The notes under the pieces were generated by a model that saw nothing but the letters and a program-made list of their open reading frames with translations, searched no databases and was not told the DNA's origin. Made by a program: the position numbers and the translations under genes. 25,150 nt of DNA from the IMG/VR virus record IMGVR_UViG_3300027754_000405, positions 1 through 25,150 of that record; one strand, 5' to 3'. This DNA is from a virus. This document shows, in pieces, positions 2 through 22,760 of the stretch. Position 1 is the stretch's first letter, and each line of letters starts with the position of its first letter.

Positions 2-652
2 GGCTGGACACCGTGGGGAGTTTTTACAGGTTACGAAAAAGAAACCAGGCCGTTGACGATACCAGAAATTAGCCGACTGAGGGCCGATCGTAACGCGGCG
101 ATCGCCGAAGCCTTTAAGCAAACAAAATCAATTTACCTCACCCGCAAGCTGCTAGGCTTTGCTTACTCGCGGGATATTGTGCGTAAAGCCATCACCAAGG
201 CCGGCCTCTATAACAAATGCAAGCGCGAGACGTCCCTCGTAAAGAATGCAAATCGGAGACAAAATCGAAAAGGCTACCTTAGCCGATGCCTTTCAGTTAC
301 GCACCCGGTCGAGGTTAAACTTCAGCTGGAACTAGCAAAGGCTTTGGCCGAAAACTCGATTTGGTTTGAGCGCGAGAAGTTGGTGCCTGGGTGCCAGATG
401 CGGGCCGACCTGATTGGAAAACTATGGGCCGTAGAAACTAAAGTGAATTGCTGTTCTCAGTCATTAATTACTGCGATGGCTCAAGCGTTTATTTATCGCC
501 GCCACCTTCAAAAAGATCGCGTTTGCGTTGTCATCCCCGACGACATTGAACCGGCGGAGTTTTATCGGGCCGAACTTCTGGCGCACGATGTGCCCATCTT
601 TAAAGCCTCTGAGTTTATCAGTTGGGTTAAAACCGTTGAATTAAATGCCTAG
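2..652 (+). CDS. HTH plus PD-(D/E)XK nuclease-like protein, 5' partial
   Basis: The frame is open from the left edge, so the true start is probably outside the window; the first usable internal start is a weak TTG at 53. Counting from that TTG, residues about 15-55 look like a helix-turn-helix. A restriction-enzyme-like core follows: Asp119 in RADL, then Glu128-x-Lys130 in AVETKV, then a QAFIY helix (Gln144, Tyr148) and a hydrophobic strand VCVVIP. This order matches PD-(D/E)XK nucleases. Hand counts for positions 121-180 and 241-300 give 45% and 42% GC, well below the packaging genes, so it looks acquired. The stop overlaps the next start. Next to a small terminase, a mobile or packaging-associated endonuclease is plausible. 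The nuclease fold is inferred from motifs only; the substrate is unknown. Confidence 0.6.
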   Translation, partial: GWTPWGVFTGYEKETRPLTIPEISRLRADRNAAIAEAFKQTKSIYLTRKLLGFAYSRDIVRKAITKAGLYNKCKRETSLVKNANRRQNRKGYLSRCLSVTHPVEVKLQLELAKALAENSIWFEREKLVPGCQMRADLIGKLWAVETKVNCCSQSLITAMAQAFIYRRHLQKDRVCVVIPDDIEPAEFYRAELLAHDVPIFKASEFISWVKTVELNA

Positions 653-1193
653 TCAAACCGAACTTGCGGACGCGCTCGGCCTGACGCGTCAACGGGTGTC
701 ATTCCTGGTCAAGCAAGGTATGCCCATTGACTCGCTCGAGTCCGCGATGGCTTGGCGGCAAGCTAGGGAGGACGAACGTCGCCGGCCCGCCCCGGTGGTA
801 GGCCTTGAGGCGCTGACCGACCTGACGCTCGAGCAAAGCATCGGGACGCATAAAGCCCGCGTCGAACACGCCGGCGAAATCTGGGACGCGGCGATGAGGG
901 GCGGCGACCCGAACCAGGGCAAATACCAGACAGCCTATAATCAGGCGTTCAAAACCCTGATTGACCTCGAGGCCGAGCTCGAGCGGCGCCGCACGGCGAA
1001 CGGCGAGTTCATCAGCGCGAAGGAAGCGGGCGAGGCGATGCGCGAACTGATGGCCGAGGTCGTGAACCGACTAGACAAGTTGGCGCTCGATTGCGCCGAG
1101 GGCTGCAACCCCGAGACCCCGGCCAAGGCGGTCAAAACGTTGGAGGCTTGGGCACGGAAAACCAGAGAGGACTTAAGCCGTGCGGCGGGCTGA
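645..1193 (+). CDS. terS: Terminase small subunit (Nu1-like) candidate
   Basis: The 182-residue protein has an N-terminal helix-turn-helix (about residues 4-24, ELADALGLTRQRVSFLVKQG), like the winged-helix DNA-binding end of lambda Nu1. The rest is mostly charged helix: a glutamate/arginine-rich stretch around residues 95-115 could be an oligomerisation coiled coil, and the C-terminal helices could contact the large subunit. Small terminases recognise the packaging site and load the large subunit. The gene lies directly before a GpA-type large terminase and overlaps it by 14 bases, which is the main support. ATG at 645 overlaps the stop of the previous gene. A general DNA-binding regulator is the alternative. 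Confidence 0.75.
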   Translation: MPSQTELADALGLTRQRVSFLVKQGMPIDSLESAMAWRQAREDERRRPAPVVGLEALTDLTLEQSIGTHKARVEHAGEIWDAAMRGGDPNQGKYQTAYNQAFKTLIDLEAELERRRTANGEFISAKEAGEAMRELMAEVVNRLDKLALDCAEGCNPETPAKAVKTLEAWARKTREDLSRAAG

Positions 1194-2991
1194 TCTGCTG
1201 GCAATCGGTCGGGACGTTCTGAGGCCGTCGAGCGAGGGTGATATCGTGACCTGGCTAGAGGCCAACGTGAAGGCCATCCCCGACTCTCCGATGCCCGGGC
1301 CTTTCCGAGCTGACCGAACGCCTTGGGTTCGAGATGCGCTGCGGATTGCTGCCGACCCTGAGGTTCAACTGATGACTGTCCTCGCGAGTATCCAATCGGG
1401 GAAGTCGCTGTTCGCCCGGTTGCTGACCTGCTGGATTGCGGAACACGCTCCCGGCCCGACGCTTTTGCTCCAGGCTACGGACCCGGAAGCAAAGGACTTT
1501 GCCCTTCGTTATCTCCGCCCGGTGTTTAAGAACACGCCGCCGGTGTTGGCCCGGATGAAGGCCGACGATATGGAGCGCTCGACGACTATCGACTTCGACC
1601 GCTTCCCGCTTTACTGCCGAGGGGCTTGGAACGAAGGCAACCTTCAGCGCCTATCTATTCGGTATGTCATCGGCGACGAGTGTTGGCTATGGCCGCCCGG
1701 GCACTTGCAGGAAGCGAGCGCTCGCGTGACGGCGTTCGGCTGGATGGGGAAGCGGGTGTTTATGACTCAGGGCGGGACGCTTGGCGGTAAGGGCGGCGAG
1801 TTTCACGCGCTGCACGAAACGACCGACCAACGGGATTGGAACTTCCGTTGCCCGAAAGAAGGGTGCGGATTTCTCCAGCCCTGGCTATGGGAGATGATCC
1901 GCTTCCCGGAGTCCGCTAAGGTCAGCGGGTCGTGGGATTTAAACGCGGTGGCGGACGGCACGAAATACGAGTGTGCCGGCTGTCATACATTGTTGGACGA
2001 TAACGCCGGGACGCGGTCGGAGGCTAACGCTCGCGGGGAGTTCGTGGCGACAAACCCGCTAGCCTATCACGGCAAGGTCGGGCTCCATTGGAACGCCTTA
2101 GCGACGATGGCCTGGGGCGAGTTGGGCGTGATGATGCTCAAGGCCAAGGAGTCGGCTGATACCTACGGGGACAATGAGCCCCGCCGCATCTTCAAACAGA
2201 AACGGCTGGCGATGCCTTGGCAGGAGGAGGGCGGCGAGATCGTGGCTGACGCTACGGCCAGCGACTACAACTTAGGCGACGCGTGGGAGGCCGAGGCGAT
2301 GATTACGGGCAAGGGCCGGGTGGTCGACGGGAAGGACGCGCCGGCGGGAAGCATCCCATTTCGCACGATGGGGGTCGACGTTCAGCGCGGACACTTCTGG
2401 GTTGTGGTCCGCAGCTGGGCCAAGTCCGGGCATAGTCGCCTCTACGGGTTTGCAAAGGTCGAGACGTGGGCCGGGGTGGAGGACTTTGCCAAAAAAGCAT
2501 CAGTCCACAAGGCCCTGGTGCTTGTCGACTCCGGGGACCAGACGACCGACGTATACCGCGAGACGGCCCGACGTGGCTGGAAGTGTGCTCGTGGTTCGGG
2601 TAACGAGGACTTCGCGGTAACGGATCGGGACGGCAAGACGACGCGCCGCTTCTATTCCGAGCGTCAGCGCATCCAGGTTCCCGGTATGCCCGGTCAGCCG
2701 GCGCACCTTATCTCCTGGTCTAACTTGGCTGGAAAGGACTTGCTTCACGGGATGCGGGTCAAGCGGCTGCACTCGTTCCCCCGCAACGCTGACCCGTTTT
2801 ATATCGAGATGATGGCGAGCGAGGTCCGGGTAAAGGACAAGCGGACCGGCAAACCGATGTGGATCATGCCGCAAGGCAAGAAAGATAATCACGCTTGGGA
2901 CTGCGAGTGCCTATGCCTCTTAGCTGCGGTCCGCTGGGGTATTGGTAGCCGCGGCGAGGTCTCAGTAACGGAGGCGCCGGATGCCGCTTGA
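1180..2991 (+). CDS. terL: Terminase large subunit, lambda GpA family
   Basis: This is the packaging motor: an ATPase that threads DNA into the prohead and a nuclease that cuts concatemers. The 603 residues are close to the usual GpA length (about 640). The ATPase part has a Walker A-like SIQSGKS (residues 70-76) and a Walker B RYVIGDE (161-167, acidic pair Asp166-Glu167). Cys224/Cys229 and Cys265/Cys268 form a putative zinc knuckle, seen in this family. The nuclease part begins at TMGVDVQ (Asp400), the GpA catalytic aspartate motif, and continues with VDSGDQT (about 449-455) and a C-terminal NHAWDCE. GTG at 1180 is chosen because it follows a purine-rich GAGAGGA and gives the full N-terminus. 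It overlaps the small subunit upstream and the connector gene downstream. Confidence 0.95.
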   Translation: MRRADLLAIGRDVLRPSSEGDIVTWLEANVKAIPDSPMPGPFRADRTPWVRDALRIAADPEVQLMTVLASIQSGKSLFARLLTCWIAEHAPGPTLLLQATDPEAKDFALRYLRPVFKNTPPVLARMKADDMERSTTIDFDRFPLYCRGAWNEGNLQRLSIRYVIGDECWLWPPGHLQEASARVTAFGWMGKRVFMTQGGTLGGKGGEFHALHETTDQRDWNFRCPKEGCGFLQPWLWEMIRFPESAKVSGSWDLNAVADGTKYECAGCHTLLDDNAGTRSEANARGEFVATNPLAYHGKVGLHWNALATMAWGELGVMMLKAKESADTYGDNEPRRIFKQKRLAMPWQEEGGEIVADATASDYNLGDAWEAEAMITGKGRVVDGKDAPAGSIPFRTMGVDVQRGHFWVVVRSWAKSGHSRLYGFAKVETWAGVEDFAKKASVHKALVLVDSGDQTTDVYRETARRGWKCARGSGNEDFAVTDRDGKTTRRFYSERQRIQVPGMPGQPAHLISWSNLAGKDLLHGMRVKRLHSFPRNADPFYIEMMASEVRVKDKRTGKPMWIMPQGKKDNHAWDCECLCLLAAVRWGIGSRGEVSVTEAPDAA

Positions 2992-3364
2992 CGCAGGAAT
3001 GTCGGGTGCTTGTGTGTTCATAGGCTGCTGGCTCGGGACTTGCGCGTGGGGCGCGGGTTGGAACAACCGGGCCAGCGGCTCCCTGTTGCCTTACGATGCA
3101 AGGCAAATGGCATCTGGCATCTTCATCGGTCTGACGGAGGACGAACTTTTGGCTATCAAGTCGAAGGCCGTGACGGCGATCACGTTGGGCCTGAACGTCG
3201 TCAGTTATTCGGACTCCGGCTCGAGCGCCTCGAAAGCCTGGGCGATGCAGCCCAAGGAAATGTTGACCGAGGCCCTGTTCGCCCTGTCTACCCTCGACCC
3301 TCTCGTTTATGGTTACCGTCGCACGATTGTTTCGACGAATTGGAATAACCGCATCGACCAATAA
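2981..3364 (+). CDS. gpW-like head-tail connector candidate
   Basis: Lambda encodes the 68-residue gpW, which closes the filled head for tail joining, between its terminase and portal genes. This gene sits in the same slot. From Met43 (ATG at 3107) the product would be 85 residues with a helical start (TEDELLAIKSKAV), a beta-like segment and a second helix (PKEMLTEALFALSTL), resembling the gpW pattern. The longer start at 2981 follows GGAGG by six bases and adds 42 residues that are odd for a connector: hydrophobic and rich in Cys, Trp and Gly (ACVFIGCWLGTCAWGAG). Either the short form is the real connector or both are made. I kept the long start because of its ribosome binding site. Function rests mainly on position and size. 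Confidence 0.65.
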   Translation: MPLDAGMSGACVFIGCWLGTCAWGAGWNNRASGSLLPYDARQMASGIFIGLTEDELLAIKSKAVTAITLGLNVVSYSDSGSSASKAWAMQPKEMLTEALFALSTLDPLVYGYRRTIVSTNWNNRIDQ

Positions 3365-3367
3365 CTT

Positions 3368-4858
3368 ATGCCACCCCGGAAGACGACTAAGGCCACCCCT
3401 AAGAAGAAAGCCGTTAAGGCTGACCCGCTGAAGCCGCAGGCTACCTTTGGCGGCTGGCAGAGTGTTGGGCAGACTCGCCTCCGCCGCGGGTTTTATAACG
3501 GCCCAGCTCAGGACTTGCGTCGCGATCTGAAGCCGAGCGACCGTCTCTCGATGGTTCGCCGGTGCCGATGGGCGGAAAGGAATAGCGGCCTGTTTAAGCA
3601 AATCCTGAATGACCTGGTCTTGTATACGTCGGGCGACGGTATCAAGCCGCAGTCACACGCTAGCACCCCGGGGCTCGCTGATACTTACGAAGCCTACTTC
3701 GCTGAGAAGTCTAAGCGCATTGATATCACGAACCGCTTTTCGTTCGAGCAAGCGCAGTCTATCCTTATGCGGGCGATGGCCCGAGATGGGGATGCGTTCG
3801 CCGCCAAGGTCCGCAACGCTAGGGGCGAGGCCAAGTTGCAACTGATTGAGGCCCACCGCGTCGGCGACCCTATGGATGCCGTGGCCCCGGAGGGGATGCA
3901 CGACGGATGTATTTTCGGACCTTACGGAGAACTGATTGCGTTCAACGTCTATCGCTCCGACGGCTCGAACCGGCAGATCCTGGCGGAGTCTATGATGCAC
4001 GTCGTCGACCACGAATACGCATCCGGCGCCCGAGGGGTTCCGATGCTGCAACATAGCATCAACTCTATTCAGGACGAAATGGACATTCTCCAATTGGAAC
4101 TTTTGGCCGTTAAGGACAACGCCGACGTCACGCGTGTTATCAAGAAATCGGGCGGCTATGTCGAAGGCGACCTCGCTGCCGAACTCGGGGCCGGCGCGTC
4201 TTATGAGAACATCGCGGCCCGGATGGGCGGCAAGTTGCTAGCGCTCGAGCCCGGGGAGTCGTTCGAGTCCTTCAGCTCGAACCGCCCGAGCCCGACCTTC
4301 ACCGGCTTCCTCGCGGCGCTGGAGCGAGACATTAGCCAGGGTGTGCTGCCTTACGAGTTCGTTAACGACCCGTCGAAGATTGGCGGGGCCTCGGTTCGCC
4401 TGATCACGGCTAAGGCCGGACGGGTGTTCGGCAAGTTCCAGCAAATCCTGATTGACCAACTTTGCCAACCGACTTGGGGCTACATCATCGGGCAAGGTAT
4501 CGCCGACGGCGACCTGCCTGACGACCCGGATTGGGCGAGCGTCTCCTGGACGACTCCTAAGAGCGTGACGGTCGACGGTGGCCGGGACGCGGCGAACGAC
4601 CGTAACGACGTTGAAATGGGTCTCCTCTCTATGTCGGAACTCTACGCGCAGCGCGGGCTCGACTTCCGAACCGAGATGAAAAAGCGGGCGAGCGATATGA
4701 CCTTCATCATTGAGCAAGCGAAGGCTGCTGGCATCCCCGTTTGGATGCTGTATAAGCCCGGGTTCAATTGGCTCCAGCAGGGACAGGCTAACAGCCAAAT
4801 CCCCGACACGGTTTCCGAGAACCTCGACCTACCTCCTCCTCCTGAGCCCCTTCCCTAA
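3368..4858 (+). CDS. Portal protein, lambda gpB type
   Basis: The portal is the dodecameric ring at the packaging vertex through which DNA enters and leaves. At 496 residues the length fits the lambda-type portal family (Phage_portal_2). The N-terminus is a lysine-rich tail (about 1-22). Conserved-looking stretches include RRCRWAERNSG (about 60), the VVDHEYASGARGVPMLQHSI region (about 215-235), and SFESFSSNRPSPTFTGF followed by QGVLPYEF and GGASVRLI (about 300-345), which are hallmark segments of this family. The C-terminus is proline-rich. Terminase upstream and prohead protease downstream make the call secure. ATG at 3368 lies three bases after the previous stop and has no clear Shine-Dalgarno. 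Confidence 0.92.
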   Translation: MPPRKTTKATPKKKAVKADPLKPQATFGGWQSVGQTRLRRGFYNGPAQDLRRDLKPSDRLSMVRRCRWAERNSGLFKQILNDLVLYTSGDGIKPQSHASTPGLADTYEAYFAEKSKRIDITNRFSFEQAQSILMRAMARDGDAFAAKVRNARGEAKLQLIEAHRVGDPMDAVAPEGMHDGCIFGPYGELIAFNVYRSDGSNRQILAESMMHVVDHEYASGARGVPMLQHSINSIQDEMDILQLELLAVKDNADVTRVIKKSGGYVEGDLAAELGAGASYENIAARMGGKLLALEPGESFESFSSNRPSPTFTGFLAALERDISQGVLPYEFVNDPSKIGGASVRLITAKAGRVFGKFQQILIDQLCQPTWGYIIGQGIADGDLPDDPDWASVSWTTPKSVTVDGGRDAANDRNDVEMGLLSMSELYAQRGLDFRTEMKKRASDMTFIIEQAKAAGIPVWMLYKPGFNWLQQGQANSQIPDTVSENLDLPPPPEPLP

Positions 4859-4862
4859 TTCT

Positions 4863-5651
4863 ATGCGTTTCCTTACCAATGGCCTCAAGGGCCGCGAGCC
4901 CTTGCTAATCGACCCGACCCGGGCCAGCGATCACGCCGCGCTTGGCGAGAAGTTCGGTTTTACCGATATGCTGGCGCAGTTGTTCGGCGCGGCGCCTGTC
5001 CCCTATATTCTTGAGAACGGCACGGGGGTTATCCCGGTGGCCGGAGTGATCGGCAAAGGTCTCTCGCCTCTCGAGAAGATGATGGGGTCTTGCGATATGG
5101 AAGACGTCTGCGACGCGATTGACCAGATGACCGCGAACCCCAGCGTTCAGCGGATTGCTTTCCACATCTCCAGCCCTGGCGGCACGGTCACCGGCGTCGA
5201 GGAGTTGGCGAACAAGGTCCGCGGCCTGAAGGTTCCGACGATGGCCTACACCGACTCCGAGATGTGCTCGGCAGCCTATTGGGTTGCGAGCGCTGCCGAC
5301 CGGGTTGTGTCGGCGCCATCGGCGACCGTCGGCTCGATTGGCGTTTATATGGCAATCCCGGATTGCTCTAAGGCCGCGGAGATGGAAGGTATCAAGATGG
5401 TCGTCATCAAGTCGGGCAAGTATAAGGGCGCCGGGATTGAGGGCACTAGCCTTACGGCCGACCAGGTCGAGAACTTGCAAGCCTCGGTCGACTCTATCCA
5501 CGCCGACTTTAAAGCCGCGGTGCAAATCAAGCGCAAGATGGTCAAGGCCGAGACGATGGAAGGGCAGACCTTTAGCGGTAAGCAAGCCGCCCAGGTTGGG
5601 CTCGTGACCGGGCTGGCCGATAACTTCAACGCGGCCCTCTCGTCCTTCTAG
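4863..5651 (+). CDS. Prohead protease, S49 (SppA/gpC-like) serine peptidase
   Basis: The 262-residue protein is an S49-family peptidase of the kind that matures phage proheads by digesting scaffold. Landmarks are a hydrophobic strand NGTGVIPVAGVI (about 52-63), ISSPGG (102-107, oxyanion region), CSAAYW with candidate nucleophile Ser136, and SGKYK (184-188) with the candidate general-base lysine, matching the Ser/Lys dyad of single-domain SppA proteins. Lambda gpC carries a C-terminal scaffold extension; this protein ends soon after the protease domain, and the next gene is a separate coiled-coil protein. An upstream in-frame ATG at 4710 lies deep in the portal gene and its translation is unlike a phage protein. 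ATG at 4863, four bases after the portal stop, is the better start. Confidence 0.92.
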   Translation: MRFLTNGLKGREPLLIDPTRASDHAALGEKFGFTDMLAQLFGAAPVPYILENGTGVIPVAGVIGKGLSPLEKMMGSCDMEDVCDAIDQMTANPSVQRIAFHISSPGGTVTGVEELANKVRGLKVPTMAYTDSEMCSAAYWVASAADRVVSAPSATVGSIGVYMAIPDCSKAAEMEGIKMVVIKSGKYKGAGIEGTSLTADQVENLQASVDSIHADFKAAVQIKRKMVKAETMEGQTFSGKQAAQVGLVTGLADNFNAALSSF

Positions 5652-5685
5652 TGGCTATCTCGGTTGCCCCCCTCTGCAAAACCAA

Positions 5686-6129
5686 ATGACCATCGAAGAA
5701 CAGTTGAACGATGCCCTCGCCGCCTCCGTCACCCTCGCTGTCGAGCGTGACGATCTGCGAGCTACGGTCGAGAAGTTGACCGTCGGCGCCGCTGACGAGT
5801 TGACCGCCATCAAGGCCGAAGTCTCCGCTAAGGATGCCCGCAACGCCGAACTGACCGCCGCGGTCGACGGCCTCGCCGCTGACAACGTTACCCTGAAGGC
5901 CCTGGTCGCCGAACTCCAAGCCGGCAAAGTCAGCGCCTCGAAAGAAGCCGCGAAGATCGCGGCCTCGGTTGGCGTCTCCCCTGTTCAGATTTCCCCCGCT
6001 GATGCCGAGAAGGCCAGCCCTGAAGCCGTCGACCACGTCGCCGCTTTCCTCGCCCTGCCCGTCGGCTCGGTTGAGCGCTCCGCCTATTTCAAGGCGCACA
6101 AGACGGTGATCGTTCAAGGCATTTTCTAA
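5686..6129 (+). CDS. Head scaffolding protein candidate
   Basis: This 147-residue protein lies between the protease and major capsid genes, where scaffolds and decoration proteins are encoded. Residues 1-95 are almost all predicted helix, with heptad-like hydrophobics and alternating charge (ERDDLRATVEKL, DELTAIKAEVSAKDARNAEL), which suggests a coiled coil. The C-terminal 50 residues are more mixed and end in a hydrophobic HKTVIVQGIF that could contact capsid. A coiled coil of this size fits a scaffold removed by the preceding protease, with the lambda C/Nu3 job split into two separate genes. A decoration protein is less likely because those are beta-rich. No family was recognised; the call comes from position and predicted structure. 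Confidence 0.6.
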   Translation: MTIEEQLNDALAASVTLAVERDDLRATVEKLTVGAADELTAIKAEVSAKDARNAELTAAVDGLAADNVTLKALVAELQAGKVSASKEAAKIAASVGVSPVQISPADAEKASPEAVDHVAAFLALPVGSVERSAYFKAHKTVIVQGIF

Positions 6130-6160
6130 TTTCCCCCTAATCTCCTAATAACCTAAATCT
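6121..6160 (+). promoter_or_regulatory. G-free leader of the major capsid gene
   Basis: Positions 6121-6160, just before the capsid ATG, contain no G at all, so no Shine-Dalgarno is possible. CTAAT occurs at 6126, 6137 and 6145, and CTAAA at 6153; the last three are spaced eight bases apart. A G-free RNA cannot form GC or GU pairs within itself and should be single-stranded, which would favour S1-dependent or leader-independent ribosome loading. It fits the most highly expressed gene of the phage. The function is inferred. Confidence 0.5.
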
Positions 6161-7030
6161 ATGGCTAACTCCATCACCGCAGCCCCGGCAGTCCTCGCCG
6201 AAGGCGTCCTCTCCACCCTGAAGAACAAGCTGCCCGTCCTCTCCGGCATCTCGACCGTCTTCTCCACCCGCCCGGGCACCGCTGGGATGAGCATCCAGGT
6301 CCCCCTGATCGGCGTCTCCACGGCCTCGTCCTTCGGCGCCTCCGGTTACCTCACCGGCGACGACGCCACCGTGACCTCCTCGACGATCAGCCTCGGCCAC
6401 TACAAGGTCTCGAGCCGCTTCACCCCGTCGAACCTCCGCGAATACGGTTCCCAGTTCTTCGTTAACAACTTCGTTAACACGGCCTCCATCGCCCTCGCTC
6501 AGAAGGTTATGGACCTGATCAACGCCCAGGTCACCGCGGCTAACTACTCGGTCTCCTCGACCACCGGCACGAACCTGACTTACGCCGAACTCGTGACCGT
6601 CCAGAACACGCTCGACGACGCCAAGGCCCCGTCCCCCCGCTATTCTGTCCTGAAGTCCTCCTACATCGCTGACCTCCGCCAAGACACCCAGATCGTTGGC
6701 AACAACGTCCTCGGTGCGCAGATCATCCGCGACGGTGACCTCGGCATCATCGCTGGCGCCCGCGTCTATCAGTTCGCGAACCTCGCTACCAACTCCGAGA
6801 ACCTCGCTGGTTGGGTCGCCGGCCCGGACGCTATCGCGTTTGCCACCGCCCTCCCCGAAACCGATATCCCGGGTTGGGAAGTCGCCAACGCTATCGACGC
6901 CGACACCGGCCTCGGCGTTCAGGTGATCATGGGCCAGGAACAGTCTGGTTACCTGAATGTGACGTGCACCCTCCTCGCGGGTTGCTCGGTTGGCCGGGCC
7001 TCCAGCCTGGTCCGTCTGAAGACCGCCTGA
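6161..7030 (+). CDS. Major capsid protein (HK97-fold type)
   Basis: The 289-residue protein builds the icosahedral shell. It follows portal, protease and scaffold genes and precedes a strong terminator, the classic place for this gene. The sequence looks like a compact HK97-type capsid protein: an N-terminal helical arm, beta stretches such as SIQVPLIGVST, a long spine-like helix around NTASIALAQKVMDLINAQV, and an A-domain with RYSVLKSSYIADLR and IAGARVYQFANL. Codon choice is markedly more C-ending (CTC, ACC, GTC, TCC, GCC) than in neighbours, as expected for very high expression. There is no obvious N-terminal domain for protease removal beyond the short arm. The start is set by the G-free leader and the only sensible ATG. 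Confidence 0.88.
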   Translation: MANSITAAPAVLAEGVLSTLKNKLPVLSGISTVFSTRPGTAGMSIQVPLIGVSTASSFGASGYLTGDDATVTSSTISLGHYKVSSRFTPSNLREYGSQFFVNNFVNTASIALAQKVMDLINAQVTAANYSVSSTTGTNLTYAELVTVQNTLDDAKAPSPRYSVLKSSYIADLRQDTQIVGNNVLGAQIIRDGDLGIIAGARVYQFANLATNSENLAGWVAGPDAIAFATALPETDIPGWEVANAIDADTGLGVQVIMGQEQSGYLNVTCTLLAGCSVGRASSLVRLKTA

Positions 7031-7031
7031 T

Positions 7032-7082
7032 GATTGCGGCCTAAGCCGCTTCAATCGGGGCCCCTACGGGGGCCCCTTTTTT
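7032..7082 (+). terminator. Tandem-hairpin rho-independent terminator after capsid
   Basis: The second hairpin pairs GGGGCCCC at 7057-7064 with GGGGCCCC at 7069-7076 across a TACG loop, a stable UNCG-type tetraloop closed by C-G, and is followed directly by six Ts (7077-7082). A first hairpin, 7032-7056, pairs GATTGCGGC with GCCG and CAATC across CTAA, with a three-base bulge. Together they should end or strongly reduce head-operon transcription and protect the capsid mRNA 3' end. Confidence 0.9.
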
Positions 7083-7110
7083 GTGCCCGTTTGCCAAGGC
7101 CCGCAAGGTT

Positions 7111-7488
7111 GTGAGTCTATACGCTGACTTCCTGCCGGACGCTAAGGTTATCCTCGCCGACTTTGGCGTGGCTGGATCGTGCAACTCGGGGGCCATTACT
7201 TTTGTCTGTATGCTATCCGACCCCTCCGTGACGCAGGTCTTCGAGGCTGGGGGCTTTTGTGAGCGAACCCAGCACACGGTCCGCCTCGCGGCTGCAACGG
7301 CCTCCTGGACCCTCCCAGACGGGTCTAATGGGGCATCGGCGGCGGTCATCAGCGGGGGCTTGCCCATCGCCAGCCTAGCCATCGGCAAGAAGATTGTCGC
7401 CGGGGGGAAGAACCTCCGCATCACCGGGCAGACCTATAAGCCCGCGTCGGCTTGGATCACCCTGGTCGTCATCGACGATAATCAATAA
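7111..7488 (+). CDS. Head-tail joining protein candidate (gpFII-like)
   Basis: The protein (about 125 residues from GTG 7111) follows the capsid gene where lambda encodes FII, which forms the tail-docking surface of the head. A short N-terminal helix with ADF, then alternating beta segments (GAITFVCMLSDP, HTVRLAAATA, KNLRITGQTY, AWITLVVIDD), agree with the FII/stopper beta-barrel pattern, including a late 'NLRITGQTYKPASAWITL' strand pair. The frame is open back to a TTG at 7081, but that codon lies in the terminator T-run, so a transcript starting downstream would lack it; GTG 7111, 11 bases after AAGG, is preferred. Similarity is by pattern, not by a search. Confidence 0.6.
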   Translation: MSLYADFLPDAKVILADFGVAGSCNSGAITFVCMLSDPSVTQVFEAGGFCERTQHTVRLAAATASWTLPDGSNGASAAVISGGLPIASLAIGKKIVAGGKNLRITGQTYKPASAWITLVVIDDNQ

Positions 7489-7492
7489 AGCC

Positions 7493-8431
7493 GTGGGCCT
7501 GATCCCACAATCAGCCGAGAAGTTCCGAAAGGCGCTTGAAGACTACGCCCGCGAGATGGGGCTAGGGATGGACGAGGCCGGGGTCGTCGGGGCTGGGGAA
7601 TTGTGCAAGGCCGCGCTAAACCTAACCCCTCCGATGGTCGAGGCTGGGGGCCAAGGCTTGAGCAAGGGCGCAAAGGACGCAGGCTTTAAAGCCGTCGACC
7701 GAGACATTCGCGGACTGTTCGTAGCCAGGGACGACCGAAAGGCTGGAGCCGTAGGGGTGGCGCTGAATAAACTCAAAGGCGCATTAAAGACCAACGACCG
7801 CGGCAAGTTCGAGCGCATCCGCCAGCAAGCGACCCTCCAGAAATCGAACCTTATCAACAGCGTGACACTAAAGATTGTGCACGACTCTGATCCCGCCCGG
7901 GCTTATGCCAAGGCCCGCAACTTGTTTAACCTTTCAAATCCCATTATGACAGTCGACCAACAGGAAGTTGTTACCGACATTCGCAAGGTTCACTTGGCTC
8001 ATCGCCACATCAACGGGCAAGGCCGTATGCGGACCACGAAGGGAACAGGGAGTTACTTGGGAAAGTATGTAGTCGAAAGCAAAACCGCGCTTGATGCTTA
8101 CATTAAGGAAACTCAAATGCACGTTGGCTTTATCAAATCTGGTTGGTGGCAGGTGCTTTCAATGCTTCCCAAGGTTGGCGGGAAGAATGTCTATAAGGGC
8201 GGCGACGTCCCCGTTTGGATTAAGCGCCACGCTGGCACCGGCTACTCTACCCTGATGCGTAACCAGAACGGCATTTATATTCGCATCGGGAACAGCGTCG
8301 GCGATAACGATAACCAAGCGTCAAAGAACAACGTTCACGGCGTTGCAATGGCCGAAGCGATGGCCCACCTATTTGCTCGCATTGAACAAAAGCAAAACCG
8401 CGAAGGTAATAACTTTAACTCCAACTCTTAA
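7493..8431 (+). CDS. Tail completion protein candidate (gpZ-like), mosaic
   Basis: The 312-residue protein stands between the FII-like and U-like genes, the slot of lambda Z, which connects tail to head. The N-terminal part is helical (SAEKFRKALEDYAREMG) and has KAALNLTPP, a motif common in tail-completion proteins. GTG at 7493, five bases after the upstream stop and in a CCGTG context shared with other GTG starts here, is preferred; the frame is open further upstream but there it overlaps the FII-like gene. Base composition changes inside the gene: 7561-7620 is 67% GC while 8041-8100 is 47% and 8101-8160 is 43% (hand counts). The 3' half therefore looks like a replaced domain. The function call is inference from order. 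Confidence 0.5.
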   Translation: MGLIPQSAEKFRKALEDYAREMGLGMDEAGVVGAGELCKAALNLTPPMVEAGGQGLSKGAKDAGFKAVDRDIRGLFVARDDRKAGAVGVALNKLKGALKTNDRGKFERIRQQATLQKSNLINSVTLKIVHDSDPARAYAKARNLFNLSNPIMTVDQQEVVTDIRKVHLAHRHINGQGRMRTTKGTGSYLGKYVVESKTALDAYIKETQMHVGFIKSGWWQVLSMLPKVGGKNVYKGGDVPVWIKRHAGTGYSTLMRNQNGIYIRIGNSVGDNDNQASKNNVHGVAMAEAMAHLFARIEQKQNREGNNFNSNS

Positions 8432-8436
8432 ACTTT

Positions 8437-8868
8437 ATGGGCACAAAATCTATCCGACATATCGTCGAGGCCAACGTGGCCTCGTTCCTCACAGCTGAGA
8501 CCGGGCTGACCGGGGTCGCTATCTATACCGGGGACTCGGTCGACCTGAACGTTCTGCCGAAGGCTATCGTCCTTTGCGACTCGGCGAAGACTCCGGGCGA
8601 CCTGCCCGAAGGCGCCGGCAATTACTCGTGCTCGGTCCGGGTCACCTTGTTCTCGAACGCCGACGACACGACCTTGGCGGATCACCGCGCCCGGTGTGCT
8701 GCCCTGGCTGGGGCGATGCAAGACCTCGCCGGCCTGAAGGCGGTATTCGTGACCTCAGCCGACGCGACCCTATACGACGTCACCCCCCTATCGGAAGACG
8801 AGGGGACGGACGAGCGCTCGTTCGCGACCCTGTTCGCTTTCGACCTATTGACCGTCCTGCCCGCGTAA
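8437..8868 (+). CDS. Tail terminator candidate (gpU-like)
   Basis: The 143-residue protein has the alpha/beta look of tail terminator proteins: a first helix with IRHIVEANVASFL, a strand with VAIYTG, a PKAIVLCDS strand, YSCSVRVTLFSNA, a helix HRARCAALAGAMQDL, and a last strand ATLFAFDLLTVL. Such proteins cap the tail tube and set its end for head joining. It follows the Z-like gene and precedes the tail tube candidate, as in lambda. The leader before ATG 8437 (8411-8436) contains no G. No database family was recalled with certainty. Confidence 0.6.
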   Translation: MGTKSIRHIVEANVASFLTAETGLTGVAIYTGDSVDLNVLPKAIVLCDSAKTPGDLPEGAGNYSCSVRVTLFSNADDTTLADHRARCAALAGAMQDLAGLKAVFVTSADATLYDVTPLSEDEGTDERSFATLFAFDLLTVLPA

Positions 8869-8892
8869 GGTTGCCCCCGCCCGCAAAGACAA

Positions 8893-9279
8893 ATGGCTGC
8901 CGTCGCTCAAGGAACCTCCTGTGTTTATGGTGTCGCTGGTTCAGCGACCGACCTATTCGTTCAGTCCTATTCGGTTTCCGCGTCTTTCAATAGCGAGGCG
9001 ATGGTGCAAACCGAGGCCGGCCTTACGACGACTATGCGCTTCGACGATCGCAAGACCGAGTTGACCGTCGAGGGTGTGGTGAAGACGACCTCGGCAACGC
9101 CCCCGGCCCTTGGTTCGACCCTAACCTTTACGGTAGCAGCGAAGGGTGCCTATCCCAGCGGCAGCGCGAGCAATACTTTTGTCGGCACGATTACCAAGGT
9201 CGAGGAAAAGGGCTCGAATAAAGAGTTCGTTAAATACTCGATTACGGCGATCGACTTCGAGTCTATCACCCCGTCCTAA
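8893..9279 (+). CDS. Major tail tube protein candidate
   Basis: A 128-residue, beta-rich protein with few charged clusters: VQSYSVSASFNSEAMVQ, TTTMRFDDRKTELTVEG, STLTFTVAAKG and KYSITAIDFES suggest a barrel made of alternating strands, with a 'FDDRKTELTVEGVV' element resembling the strand pattern of small tail tube proteins. It lies just before the assembly-chaperone and tape-measure candidates, where the tube gene normally is. Tube subunits polymerise into the DNA-conducting tail. It is shorter than lambda gpV (246 residues, with an Ig domain), so it would be a bare tube protein. The alternative is a minor tail or decoration protein. Confidence 0.5.
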   Translation: MAAVAQGTSCVYGVAGSATDLFVQSYSVSASFNSEAMVQTEAGLTTTMRFDDRKTELTVEGVVKTTSATPPALGSTLTFTVAAKGAYPSGSASNTFVGTITKVEEKGSNKEFVKYSITAIDFESITPS

Positions 9280-9285
9280 TTGACG

Positions 9286-9304
9286 GGAGCCCTGCAAGGG
9301 CTTT
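9286..9304 (+). terminator. Weak hairpin after tail tube candidate
   Basis: AGCCCT (9288-9293) pairs with AGGGCT (9297-9302) across GCA, with possible G-U extension to 9286/9304. Only three Ts follow, so it is at best a weak terminator or an mRNA 3'-end stabiliser between the tail tube candidate and the next gene. Confidence 0.35.
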
Positions 9305-9315
9305 GACTCGGGCTT

Positions 9316-9876
9316 GTGGATAAGAGATTTCTACGGGCCTTCAGCGACCCGGCTAGCCTGAGCATCCTCGGCAAGCGGGTCTTTCCCTTTTGTCTCAAGC
9401 ATCGGGTGCGCCTGATGGCGCTCGAGTCTCCCCTGGTCACGGGCGGGACGACCATCCTGCCCGCTGATCTGATGATGGCGGTCAAGGTATGCGCCGAGGA
9501 GGGCCGGCTAGATTTCTCCTGGCTTGAGCAGGTCCGTATCCGCGAGCTGGAGTTTCGCCCTGAGAAGTTCGCCGGCGAGGTCAGTCGGTTTGTGGCCCAT
9601 TGTCACGTCGACCTCTGGCCTAAGTATTGGGATGGGCCTAAGACTACCGGGACGGCGGACGGGGCCGGGATGCCTTGGCCTCTTATGATCCTGACGAACC
9701 TCATCGCCGAAGGGGTCGACGAGCAACGGGCTTGGGAAATGCCGGAGGCGCAAGCCATCTGGCTATCGACGGCCTTCTCGACGCGGAACGGGGCGAAAGT
9801 CAACGTCCTCACGACCGAGGAGGAGGAAATGATGGAGGCTATCCGGCTGGGGGAGTTGCCTCCCCAGCAAAGTTAA
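9316..9876 (+). CDS. Tail assembly chaperone candidate
   Basis: The 186-residue protein precedes the tape-measure candidate by three bases, the slot of tail assembly chaperones (lambda G). It is helical and carries WPLMILTNLIAEGVDEQRAWEMPEAQAIWLS, which resembles the C-terminal part of such chaperones, followed by an acidic TTEEEEMMEAI tail. Chaperones coat the tape measure during tail assembly and are not in the finished virion. In lambda and many siphophages a -1 frameshift makes a longer form; here the -1 frame stays open to 9914, but I found no XXXYYYZ slippery heptamer near the end. GTG at 9316 is the first start after the weak hairpin. The function is inferred from position. Confidence 0.5.
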   Translation: MDKRFLRAFSDPASLSILGKRVFPFCLKHRVRLMALESPLVTGGTTILPADLMMAVKVCAEEGRLDFSWLEQVRIRELEFRPEKFAGEVSRFVAHCHVDLWPKYWDGPKTTGTADGAGMPWPLMILTNLIAEGVDEQRAWEMPEAQAIWLSTAFSTRNGAKVNVLTTEEEEMMEAIRLGELPPQQS

Positions 9877-9879
9877 ACA

Positions 9880-10725
9880 ATGGGACGCAAACTAGAATGG
9901 GAGTTATCGGGTAAGTCCGACGTGCCGGAGAAGATGGCTAAGGCTAAGGCTTCTATGGAGGGGCTTGAAGGCGCCGGCAACGCCCTGTCTAAGAAGTTCC
10001 GCGAGGCGTTTAAGGATATCGCGGTAGGTTTCCTGGCCCCGATGGTTCTGATCCAGAAAATCATCGGTTTTATCAGCGACAAGATTGCCCAGGCTAAGGC
10101 CGATGCGGACGCGGCTAGGGAATTCGCTAAAGACCCGGAGTCTAAGAAATACGCACCGGCTGGCGGTCGTGAAGCAATCCTTCAATATATGGAGCGAAAG
10201 ACTGAGGAGGACAAGCGCAACAAGGGCCTCTCGTTAGCGTCCCAAGGCTACGAAGATTTCCTTAAGACTACTGAAAAAGGCAAGGCGATGCTGGCGGACC
10301 GCCCAGGCTTTATGAAGGCGGCTGAAGCGTTTATCCCTCAAGACATTTTGGGGAAAAATCCTAACGCTACGCGCGAGAGTTTCGCCGCGAGTCAAATGGC
10401 TAAGAGCCCTGAAGTGCGGGCTGCGATTGATGCTTTCCTCGCTGGCGACATTTCAAAGCGAAGCGCTGCCGAGGCCGCGGCCTTGGCTGGGGCTAACGGT
10501 CCGACCGCACAAAAGATTAACGAGATTTCCGGCAACGTCATTGGCGTCGGGATGAGCCCGCAACTCGCCGCGATGAAGGAGCAGACCGACCTGCAATCCG
10601 ATATGGCTAACAGCCTCCGGGCCCTCGTCGAACGCGATCAGGTCGCCCAGGGCTTCCGAACCAAGAAAGGCGAATACGACCTCGGCAGTCCGGCCTCCGG
10701 CGGTCGAACCGTATTCCCTCGCTAA
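9880..10725 (+). CDS. Short tape-measure protein candidate
   Basis: This protein of 281 residues is mostly helical and charged, with one hydrophobic stretch at about residues 47-65 (DIAVGFLAPMVLIQKIIGF), as tape measures have for membrane interaction on DNA ejection. Residues 70-135 are Ala/Lys/Glu-rich helix. It follows the chaperone candidate, where the tape measure is encoded. Tape measures are usually 600-1,500 residues; at the usual 0.15 nm per residue this one would give a tail of only about 40 nm. If it is not the tape measure, no other gene in the window is a better candidate. GC is lower around 10130-10450. Confidence 0.5.
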   Translation: MGRKLEWELSGKSDVPEKMAKAKASMEGLEGAGNALSKKFREAFKDIAVGFLAPMVLIQKIIGFISDKIAQAKADADAAREFAKDPESKKYAPAGGREAILQYMERKTEEDKRNKGLSLASQGYEDFLKTTEKGKAMLADRPGFMKAAEAFIPQDILGKNPNATRESFAASQMAKSPEVRAAIDAFLAGDISKRSAAEAAALAGANGPTAQKINEISGNVIGVGMSPQLAAMKEQTDLQSDMANSLRALVERDQVAQGFRTKKGEYDLGSPASGGRTVFPR

Positions 10726-21584: not shown

Positions 21585-21926
21585 ATGACAAACCACGACC
21601 ACATCCGCCGCTTGCTCCTTCAGATTGGCGACCGTTTAAACTCCCTTCGGGGCCGGTGTCAGGACGCTGATAACGAGGGCTCCTTCGCGGATGCTAACAA
21701 GGCCGTCGCCTTCGCCACCCGTGAACTCGAGGCCATCAACCCCGAGGCCCTGGCTGAAGCCTATGACCTGAAAGCCCTTTACGACCGGGTTCACCTGATC
21801 GTCGTTCACCTCCGCTGCCTCCGTGTCCAGCTCGAGAAATGCGAGGAGGCCGCCGAGGCCGCGCTCGAGGATGCCAAGCGCATCACACACGCCCTCGAGG
21901 ACAGTAACGACGACGACACCCTTTAA
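21585..21926 (+). CDS. Helical protein of unknown function
   Basis: 113 residues, almost entirely helical with strong negative charge at the end (DSNDDDTL). The pattern (IRRLLLQIGDRLNSLRG; LKALYDRVHLIVVHLRCLRVQLEKC) suggests a helical bundle or coiled coil. Not recognised. Its place between Erf and the exonuclease suggests a recombination or replication accessory role, but nothing in the sequence proves it. ATG 21585 follows a three-base gap. Confidence 0.5.
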   Translation: MTNHDHIRRLLLQIGDRLNSLRGRCQDADNEGSFADANKAVAFATRELEAINPEALAEAYDLKALYDRVHLIVVHLRCLRVQLEKCEEAAEAALEDAKRITHALEDSNDDDTL

Positions 21927-21938
21927 CCCTTCCCACCT

Positions 21939-22760
21939 ATGCAACACATCGAACCCCACATCATCGAGCACCGCGTTATCTATGACGGCATCGAGGCCCT
22001 CAACTACTCCGGCTCCAAGGAACTCCTGAAGTCCCCGGCACACTTCCGCCTCTACGCGACCGCCGAACGCGAGGCCACCAAGGCCCTCCGCCTTGGCTCC
22101 TACGTTCACGGCCTCGTCCTCGAGCCGACCAAGGCCCGCGAGAAGTTCGCGATCATGCCGGTCTGCGATCGCCGCACGAAGGACGGGAAGGCCACTTACG
22201 AGGCTTTCATTTCTGCCATCGAACCAGGGGTGACGGTCCTCAGCGCCGACGAGGCCGACGAAGGGCAGAAGATTGCCGCCGCCGCCCTCGGCTGTATCGA
22301 CCGCCACGGGTTCACGTTCAAGCATACCGAAATGATGTTCACGACGACCTATTGCGACGCCCAGATCAAGGTCGCGATCGATGCCGTCGGCGCTGAGGAC
22401 GGGTATCTATACGACCTCAAGACCTGCGAGGATGCCAGCCCGTCCGGGTTCCTCAAGGCCGTGCGCTCTTATCGCTATAACCTGCAAGCGAACTTCTATA
22501 AGGCCGCGTTCGAGTCAGGCTTTAAGCAGCGCGTGAACGGCTTCCGCTTTATCTGCGTCGAGAAGGAAACGCTCCAGGTCGCGGTCTACGAACTCGGCGC
22601 CGACCTGATGGCCTTCGGTTATTCTGACTTCATCAAGGCCGTCGACCTCTATAAAGCCTGTCTCGCCGCCGGTGATTGGCCCGGTTACTCTCAGGAGATC
22701 CAAACTATCGACCTCAACGCAACGCCGACCGCTTCGGCTGCGCCCATTAATTTCGCCTAA
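21939..22760 (+). CDS. PD-(D/E)XK exonuclease, RecE/DUF3799 type
   Basis: The 273-residue protein matches PD-(D/E)XK exonucleases of the RecE-C/DUF3799 kind. Motifs in order: NYSGSKELLKSPAHFRLY (22-39), GSYVHGLVLEP with Gly53 and His57 (the GxxxH element), IDAVG with Asp148, YLYDLKT with Asp159 and Lys161 (catalytic core), and QANFYKAAF with Gln183 and Tyr187. It should degrade one strand of duplex DNA from ends and expose single strands for Erf annealing, as RecE/RecT or lambda Exo/Beta do. The leader before ATG 21939 is G-free (CACCCTTTAACCCTTCCCACCT). Placement beside Erf and the SSB-like gene fits a recombination operon. Confidence 0.85.
   Translation: MQHIEPHIIEHRVIYDGIEALNYSGSKELLKSPAHFRLYATAEREATKALRLGSYVHGLVLEPTKAREKFAIMPVCDRRTKDGKATYEAFISAIEPGVTVLSADEADEGQKIAAAALGCIDRHGFTFKHTEMMFTTTYCDAQIKVAIDAVGAEDGYLYDLKTCEDASPSGFLKAVRSYRYNLQANFYKAAFESGFKQRVNGFRFICVEKETLQVAVYELGADLMAFGYSDFIKAVDLYKACLAAGDWPGYSQEIQTIDLNATPTASAAPINFA

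Follow-up and report, generated by a model that had tools for sequence, protein, structure and literature searches.

A strictly guanine-free, predicted open leader before a phage major capsid gene resembles the EF-Tu and L11 leaders of its likely Opitutae hosts

Bacterial translation can start without a Shine–Dalgarno (SD) sequence, and for such SD-independent starts open RNA is sufficient (PMC3121790). The leader described here shares with those starts an open region at the start codon and the lack of an SD; however, the openness reported there is a statistical tendency, whereas here one base is excluded absolutely over 30 nt in every relative. In Flavobacterium johnsoniae (Bacteroidetes), which has Kozak-like starts, an A at −3 promotes initiation, as it does in E. 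coli, and the positive signal consists of single A positions at −3, −6, −12 and −13 (PMC6847099). Few SD sequences, a favoured A at −3 and open RNA are common to that organism and to the present case, which differs from it by the complete absence of G, by a GC-rich genome belonging to another phylum and by C being the commonest leader base. Guanine-free viral mRNAs can form initiation complexes thanks to ribosomal protein S1, and guanine-free plant-virus leaders bind the bacterial 30S subunit via S1 (Tzareva, Makhno and Boni 1994; both as cited in PMC9458429). As far as the citing paper describes them, the plant-virus leaders are like the capsid leader in having neither G nor SD and in being unstructured, and they can start on bacterial ribosomes via S1; they were, however, foreign RNAs tested in vitro, whereas the capsid leader is native, strictly conserved, shared with host genes and accompanied by a frame-locked TAA, and its use of S1 is something that we infer. 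These plant-virus leaders are said to be of the TMV omega type. The capsid gene of T7, gene 10, has a dedicated strong leader with a strong SD; it and the leader studied here are both dedicated phage capsid leaders, but here no SD is possible. In the Verrucomicrobiota, to which the likely host belongs, a survey describes SD-poor members in which the anti-SD core is kept, with CCUCC intact in the 16S rRNA (PMC10783764); its passages on this phylum name no replacement signal, and a candidate for such a signal is the G-free leader seen before highly expressed genes.

The window analysed here, a stretch of 25,150 nt, is a 25 kb virus record (IMGVR_UViG_3300027754_000405) that carries a lambda-type head module in the order terminase GpA, lambda-family portal, S49 protease, a 147-aa ORF and the capsid gene. 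The 147-aa ORF (5686–6129, + strand, stop TAA at 6127–6129) occupies a scaffold-like position between protease and capsid; it has no match in Pfam or PHROG, and orthologues are present at the same place in related phages. In these relatives its synonymous diversity is lower at codons −18 to −13 (0.25) and −36 to −31 (0.22) from the stop, with about 0.4 nearby and 0.18 further up for comparison; an overlapping signal or just sampling are possible reasons for these stretches. The following gene (6161–7030, + strand) encodes the major capsid protein of 289 aa, which matches PHROGs 283 and 267, both 'major head protein', with E values of 3e-9 and 4e-8. There was no DNA or capsid-protein match to any named phage among 50,697 phage records, so that no annotation could be transferred.

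Third-position C in the capsid gene (0.63) is the highest among the 17 window genes compared for codon bias. A strong intrinsic terminator lies directly 3′ of the gene (7057–7082, + strand), composed of GGGGCCCC-TACG-GGGGCCCC and then T6, and all 208 relatives tested have a terminator-like hairpin with a T-run at this place. The identity of the gene, its codon bias and the terminator downstream all suggest that the capsid gene is strongly expressed. Elsewhere in the window, the leader of the ORF at 9316 and those of its orthologues have an SD-like word in 80% of cases, yet a strong structure is predicted there (MFE −13.9), probably a terminator-type hairpin right before the start codon. One related contig, L220 (IMGVR_UViG_3300020044_006631), contains two consecutive head modules (84–10230), both of which include a separate scaffold-position ORF, a divergent capsid gene and the genes that follow it; its capsids are 59% and 77% identical to the window capsid and a G-free leader precedes both. 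The double module could belong to a two-capsid phage or be an assembly artefact.

The stretch before the capsid gene is devoid of G over 43 nt (6120–6162, + strand), the next G being that of the capsid ATG at 6163. It comprises the last two codons and the stop of the upstream ORF, the spacer and the AT of the capsid ATG, and represents the longest G-free run found by scanning both strands of the window; the runner-up measures 32 nt (8407–8438). The original prediction had described a leader without G at 6121–6160 in which no SD would be possible, and both statements hold, the run being even slightly longer than proposed and containing no G that an SD could use. Because the TAA of the upstream ORF is located at 6127–6129, the true intergenic spacer, which is the SD-less leader proper, extends from 6130 to 6160 on the + strand (31 nt). 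Its 5′ part is pyrimidine-rich and its 3′ part A-richer, and the base at −3 is T, not A. Two other long G-free stretches of the window, at 8407–8438 and 21916–21940, end at predicted starts, those of ORFs 8437 and 21939; among orthologues of ORF 8437 the G-free leader is not strictly kept, with 14% G.

Capsid homologues were collected by searching IMG/VR four times and bacterial genomes once at the protein level, yielding several hundred sequences with the best 80 per scan kept. The relatives are mostly metagenome fragments, and 217 loci differing in sequence were compared. Between −1 and −30 before the capsid ATG these related phage loci contain zero G in 6,510 cells, while G is frequent again from −41, i.e. 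inside the upstream ORF. Since no G occurs in this interval in any of the 217 relatives, its absence from the capsid leader exceeds what chance would give at the level of sequence, and the opposite outcome, G-containing leaders in related phages, is strongly contradicted (0/217). The exclusion holds in all three capsid clusters (70% identity) and down to a capsid identity of about 36%, and both leader length and leader sequence vary, with 122 distinct 30-mers and spacers of 22–42 nt. Within the leader, 158 substitutions were counted on 79 close spanning-tree edges and none of them involves G, as against 51% of the third-codon-position differences in the capsid genes of the same close pairs; the probability of about 10^-49 attached to this test indicates scale only, the changes having been treated as independent. 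Leaders of eight other genes from the same phages, with at least 20 distinct orthologue leaders each, contain on average 14–33% G between −1 and −30. An A at −3 is present in 80% of the capsid leaders of relatives, and the capsid start ATGGCTAA has the form seen at host tuf and L11 (ATGGCNAA).

The suggestion of an unstructured RNA platform is likewise supported as a prediction, the unpaired probability from −30 to −1 amounting to 0.94 for the capsid leaders of relatives compared to 0.34–0.63 for other phage genes. Folding of positions 6101–6190 of the window by themselves gave an energy no different from that of shuffled sequences (z 0.27), and the structure argument therefore rests on the comparison with other genes. 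Openness alone predicts depletion of G, not its total absence, and it is the complete exclusion that it explains least well.

The original prediction had also pointed to CTAAT-like words in the leader. Three of them are exact (6126, 6137 and 6145) whereas the one at 6153 reads CTAAA; what had been missed is that many of them are TAA stops in the capsid frame. Codon usage served to choose where the upstream ORF likely ends in relatives, which provided 118 distinct spacers. All but one of these (117) carry a TAA in the capsid frame 6–27 nt ahead of the ATG, compared to 23% of shuffled spacers, and TAA in the other two frames occurs in 36% and 39%. The in-frame TAA is found mainly at −12, −9, −15, −21 and −6, and few are located at −10, −11, −13, −14, −16 or −17. 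Its position thus moves in steps of three, and it is the reading frame that is kept, not the distance; CTAAT as a fixed-distance motif was discarded on the same grounds. In the window two TAA codons in the capsid frame, at −15 and −12 (6146–6151, + strand), form the proposed insulator stop. TAA is the sole stop codon that does not contain a G. The frame-locked TAA probably serves as an insulator by blocking the production of an N-terminally extended capsid protein. It constitutes a second rule, absent from the original prediction, and we met no report of it in the open-licence literature searched; other literature may hold one. CTAA words occur 1.63 times per leader compared to 0.33 times in composition-preserving shuffles, a 5-fold excess, and CTAA and CCTAA are 2.1- and 3.4-fold over the first-order expectation; the in-frame stop alone does not fully explain the latter over-representation.

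An independent case is provided by P8625, a lytic phage in culture whose host is an Opitutae strain (PMC4642752). Its portal is ~26% identical to that of the window, and its coat protein was not detected by the capsid searches of the phage collection. The leader of its coat gene has an A at −3 and 30 nt without G; none of the other starts examined in that phage (12 in all) has so long a G-free run.

The host of the phages studied here is likely a family of freshwater Opitutae (Verrucomicrobiota). Matches in bacterial genomes were MAG contigs assigned to uncultured Opitutae (L082, L083), Verrucomicrobiota (L084, L086) and an 'actinobacterium' bin (L085); most of them point to Verrucomicrobiota, but a phage contig binned in a MAG is not proof of a host. 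Host-side searches covered the order and the family around an Opitutae MAG (G001) taken as centre. In one host relative (G021) an SD-like word precedes only 8% of 279 ORFs, as judged by a simple word match upstream of the leftmost ATG. Among 374 ORFs in 400 kb of G021 the longest G-free leaders are those of EF-Tu (53 nt), L11 (42 nt) and an apparent catalase-peroxidase (41 nt), and the next-longest include P-II, L10, S17, SecE, L14, IlvC, glutamine synthetase and S4; we take these gene names from our own reading of the N-termini, not from a family search. EF-Tu, L11 and others with the longest G-free leaders are typically abundant proteins.

In the host family, where 41 genomes were compared with start codons set from conserved N-termini, leaders with zero G between −1 and −30 account for 77% at tuf, 57% at L11, 41% at groEL and 0% at recA. 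The mean G content of these leaders is 0.8%, 2.9%, 3.7% and 10.9%, and an A at −3 occurs in 88%, 90%, 63% and 17%, respectively. Across the whole host order the L11 leaders are no different from those of recA, so the rule applies at the level of the family. Judged by sequence, the phage capsid leader and the leaders of what are presumably the most expressed genes of the host belong to one type, in agreement with the original idea of a leader tuned to its host, given that the EF-Tu, L11 and GroEL leaders of the host family are mostly G-free with A at −3. A host-wide scarcity of SD sequences was rejected as the whole explanation, given that G does occur in the leaders of other genes of these phages and amounts to 11% in host recA leaders. 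As to the translation machinery, full-length S1 is encoded in the host order, with rpsA (TIGR00717) scoring over the cut-off in four of five genomes and split at contig ends in G001, and the 3′ end of 16S rRNA was not found in the host MAGs searched. In one subgroup many of the host tuf leaders (L322, L329, L440–L445) contain ACCTCCTCA, a sequence similar to the 16S rRNA 3′ tail, in other words to the anti-SD and not to an SD; in leaders made up of C, T and A only, this likeness may be due to chance.

We consider it likely that the stretch acts as a host-type, SD-less and unstructured ribosome-landing leader of the capsid gene, probably via ribosomal protein S1. The lack of G would remove SD-like pairing with 16S rRNA, and a leader that cannot give a G to any pair should remain largely single-stranded over about 30–40 nt 5′ of the AUG. 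With its pyrimidine-rich part at about −20 to −30, an A-richer part near the start and usually an A at −3, it would offer an open platform on which the 30S subunit, probably through S1, could land and start at the first accessible AUG, presumably with high output. The in-frame TAA or TAAs within the spacer would stop upstream in-frame translation resulting from a frameshift, read-through or a non-AUG start, and all capsid protein made would then have the correct N terminus. A more far-reaching version, which we put forward tentatively and regard as less probable than not, is that in freshwater Opitutae a dedicated initiation signal has taken the place of the SD at the most expressed genes, namely no G over about 30–40 nt plus an A at −3, which a specialised ribosome or S1 route would read; the phages would copy this signal for the capsid gene and add the in-frame stop as an insulator. 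It is proposed because the complete exclusion of G is what simple openness accounts for least. If it were true, absolute exclusion would mean active recognition or a penalty on G and not mere openness.

Several other readings of the stretch have to be weighed against a ribosome-landing leader. The T/A-rich part could be a −10-like element with a transcript start at or just before the ATG, in which case the stretch would not be an RNA leader but part of a promoter, possibly of a leaderless mRNA. Such an element would fit the relatives, 81% of which have T at −12 and 82% A at −10, and also the TATAATAAA that some of them carry right before the ATG, but a scan for promoters of the sigma-70 type found no site with −10 and −35 hexamers at proper spacing in 5500–7500, and synonymous diversity is not lowered over the final 12 codons of the upstream ORF, the place expected for the −35. 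A promoter is unlikely also since the TAA follows the reading frame in threes instead of keeping a fixed distance, and since it gives no reason for 30–40 nt without G. Stop-start coupling, which had been among the routes originally suggested, would let ribosomes coming off the upstream ORF, or off some short frame before the capsid gene, slide along the open leader to the capsid AUG. The upstream ORF is indeed always close and a capsid-frame TAA lies 6–27 nt before the AUG; nevertheless, among the 118 distinct relatives the upstream stop is 22–42 nt away, unlike in overlapping stop-start pairs, and the upstream ORF is in another frame in 101. A 1:1 ratio of scaffold to capsid would be ill-suited to the far higher need for capsid, and this leader type also occurs at host tuf, next to which no coding gene lies directly upstream (tRNA-like 3′ ends at several loci); all this makes coupling quite unlikely.

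Rho utilisation (rut) sites are C-rich, G-poor and unstructured stretches, and a C-rich, G-free and predicted open sequence could in this sense load Rho, ending transcription from upstream, or exert some other RNA-level control over the capsid gene. Such a site would, however, immediately precede the gene that is expected to have the highest expression in the phage, a length of about 40 nt is on the short side for a rut, the same leader type precedes host tuf, L11 and groEL, and the frame-locked TAA together with the A at −3 points to translation, so that we judge this role to be very unlikely. It is hardly credible that the G-free leader simply arose once without having had time to change, or that a mutation bias removes G. 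All capsid homologues do belong to one lineage with three clusters at 70% identity, but leader lengths and sequences differ among them, G takes part in 0 of 158 leader substitutions and in 51% of the differences at third codon positions of the same pairs, and the host genes and P8625, with their separate history, show the same G-free leader.

How strong starts are marked in SD-poor bacteria has been studied mainly in AT-rich Bacteroidetes. The capsid leader adds a clear rule from a GC-rich and unrelated phylum, about 30 nt without G in hundreds of phages, and in the host family G is largely, though not wholly, excluded before EF-Tu, L11 and GroEL. For Opitutae genetics the G-free leader is a simple candidate for a strong start signal, and it is a possible sequence clue for linking phages to their hosts. 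The capsid leader itself represents a natural system for asking whether S1 or mere openness recruits the ribosomes.
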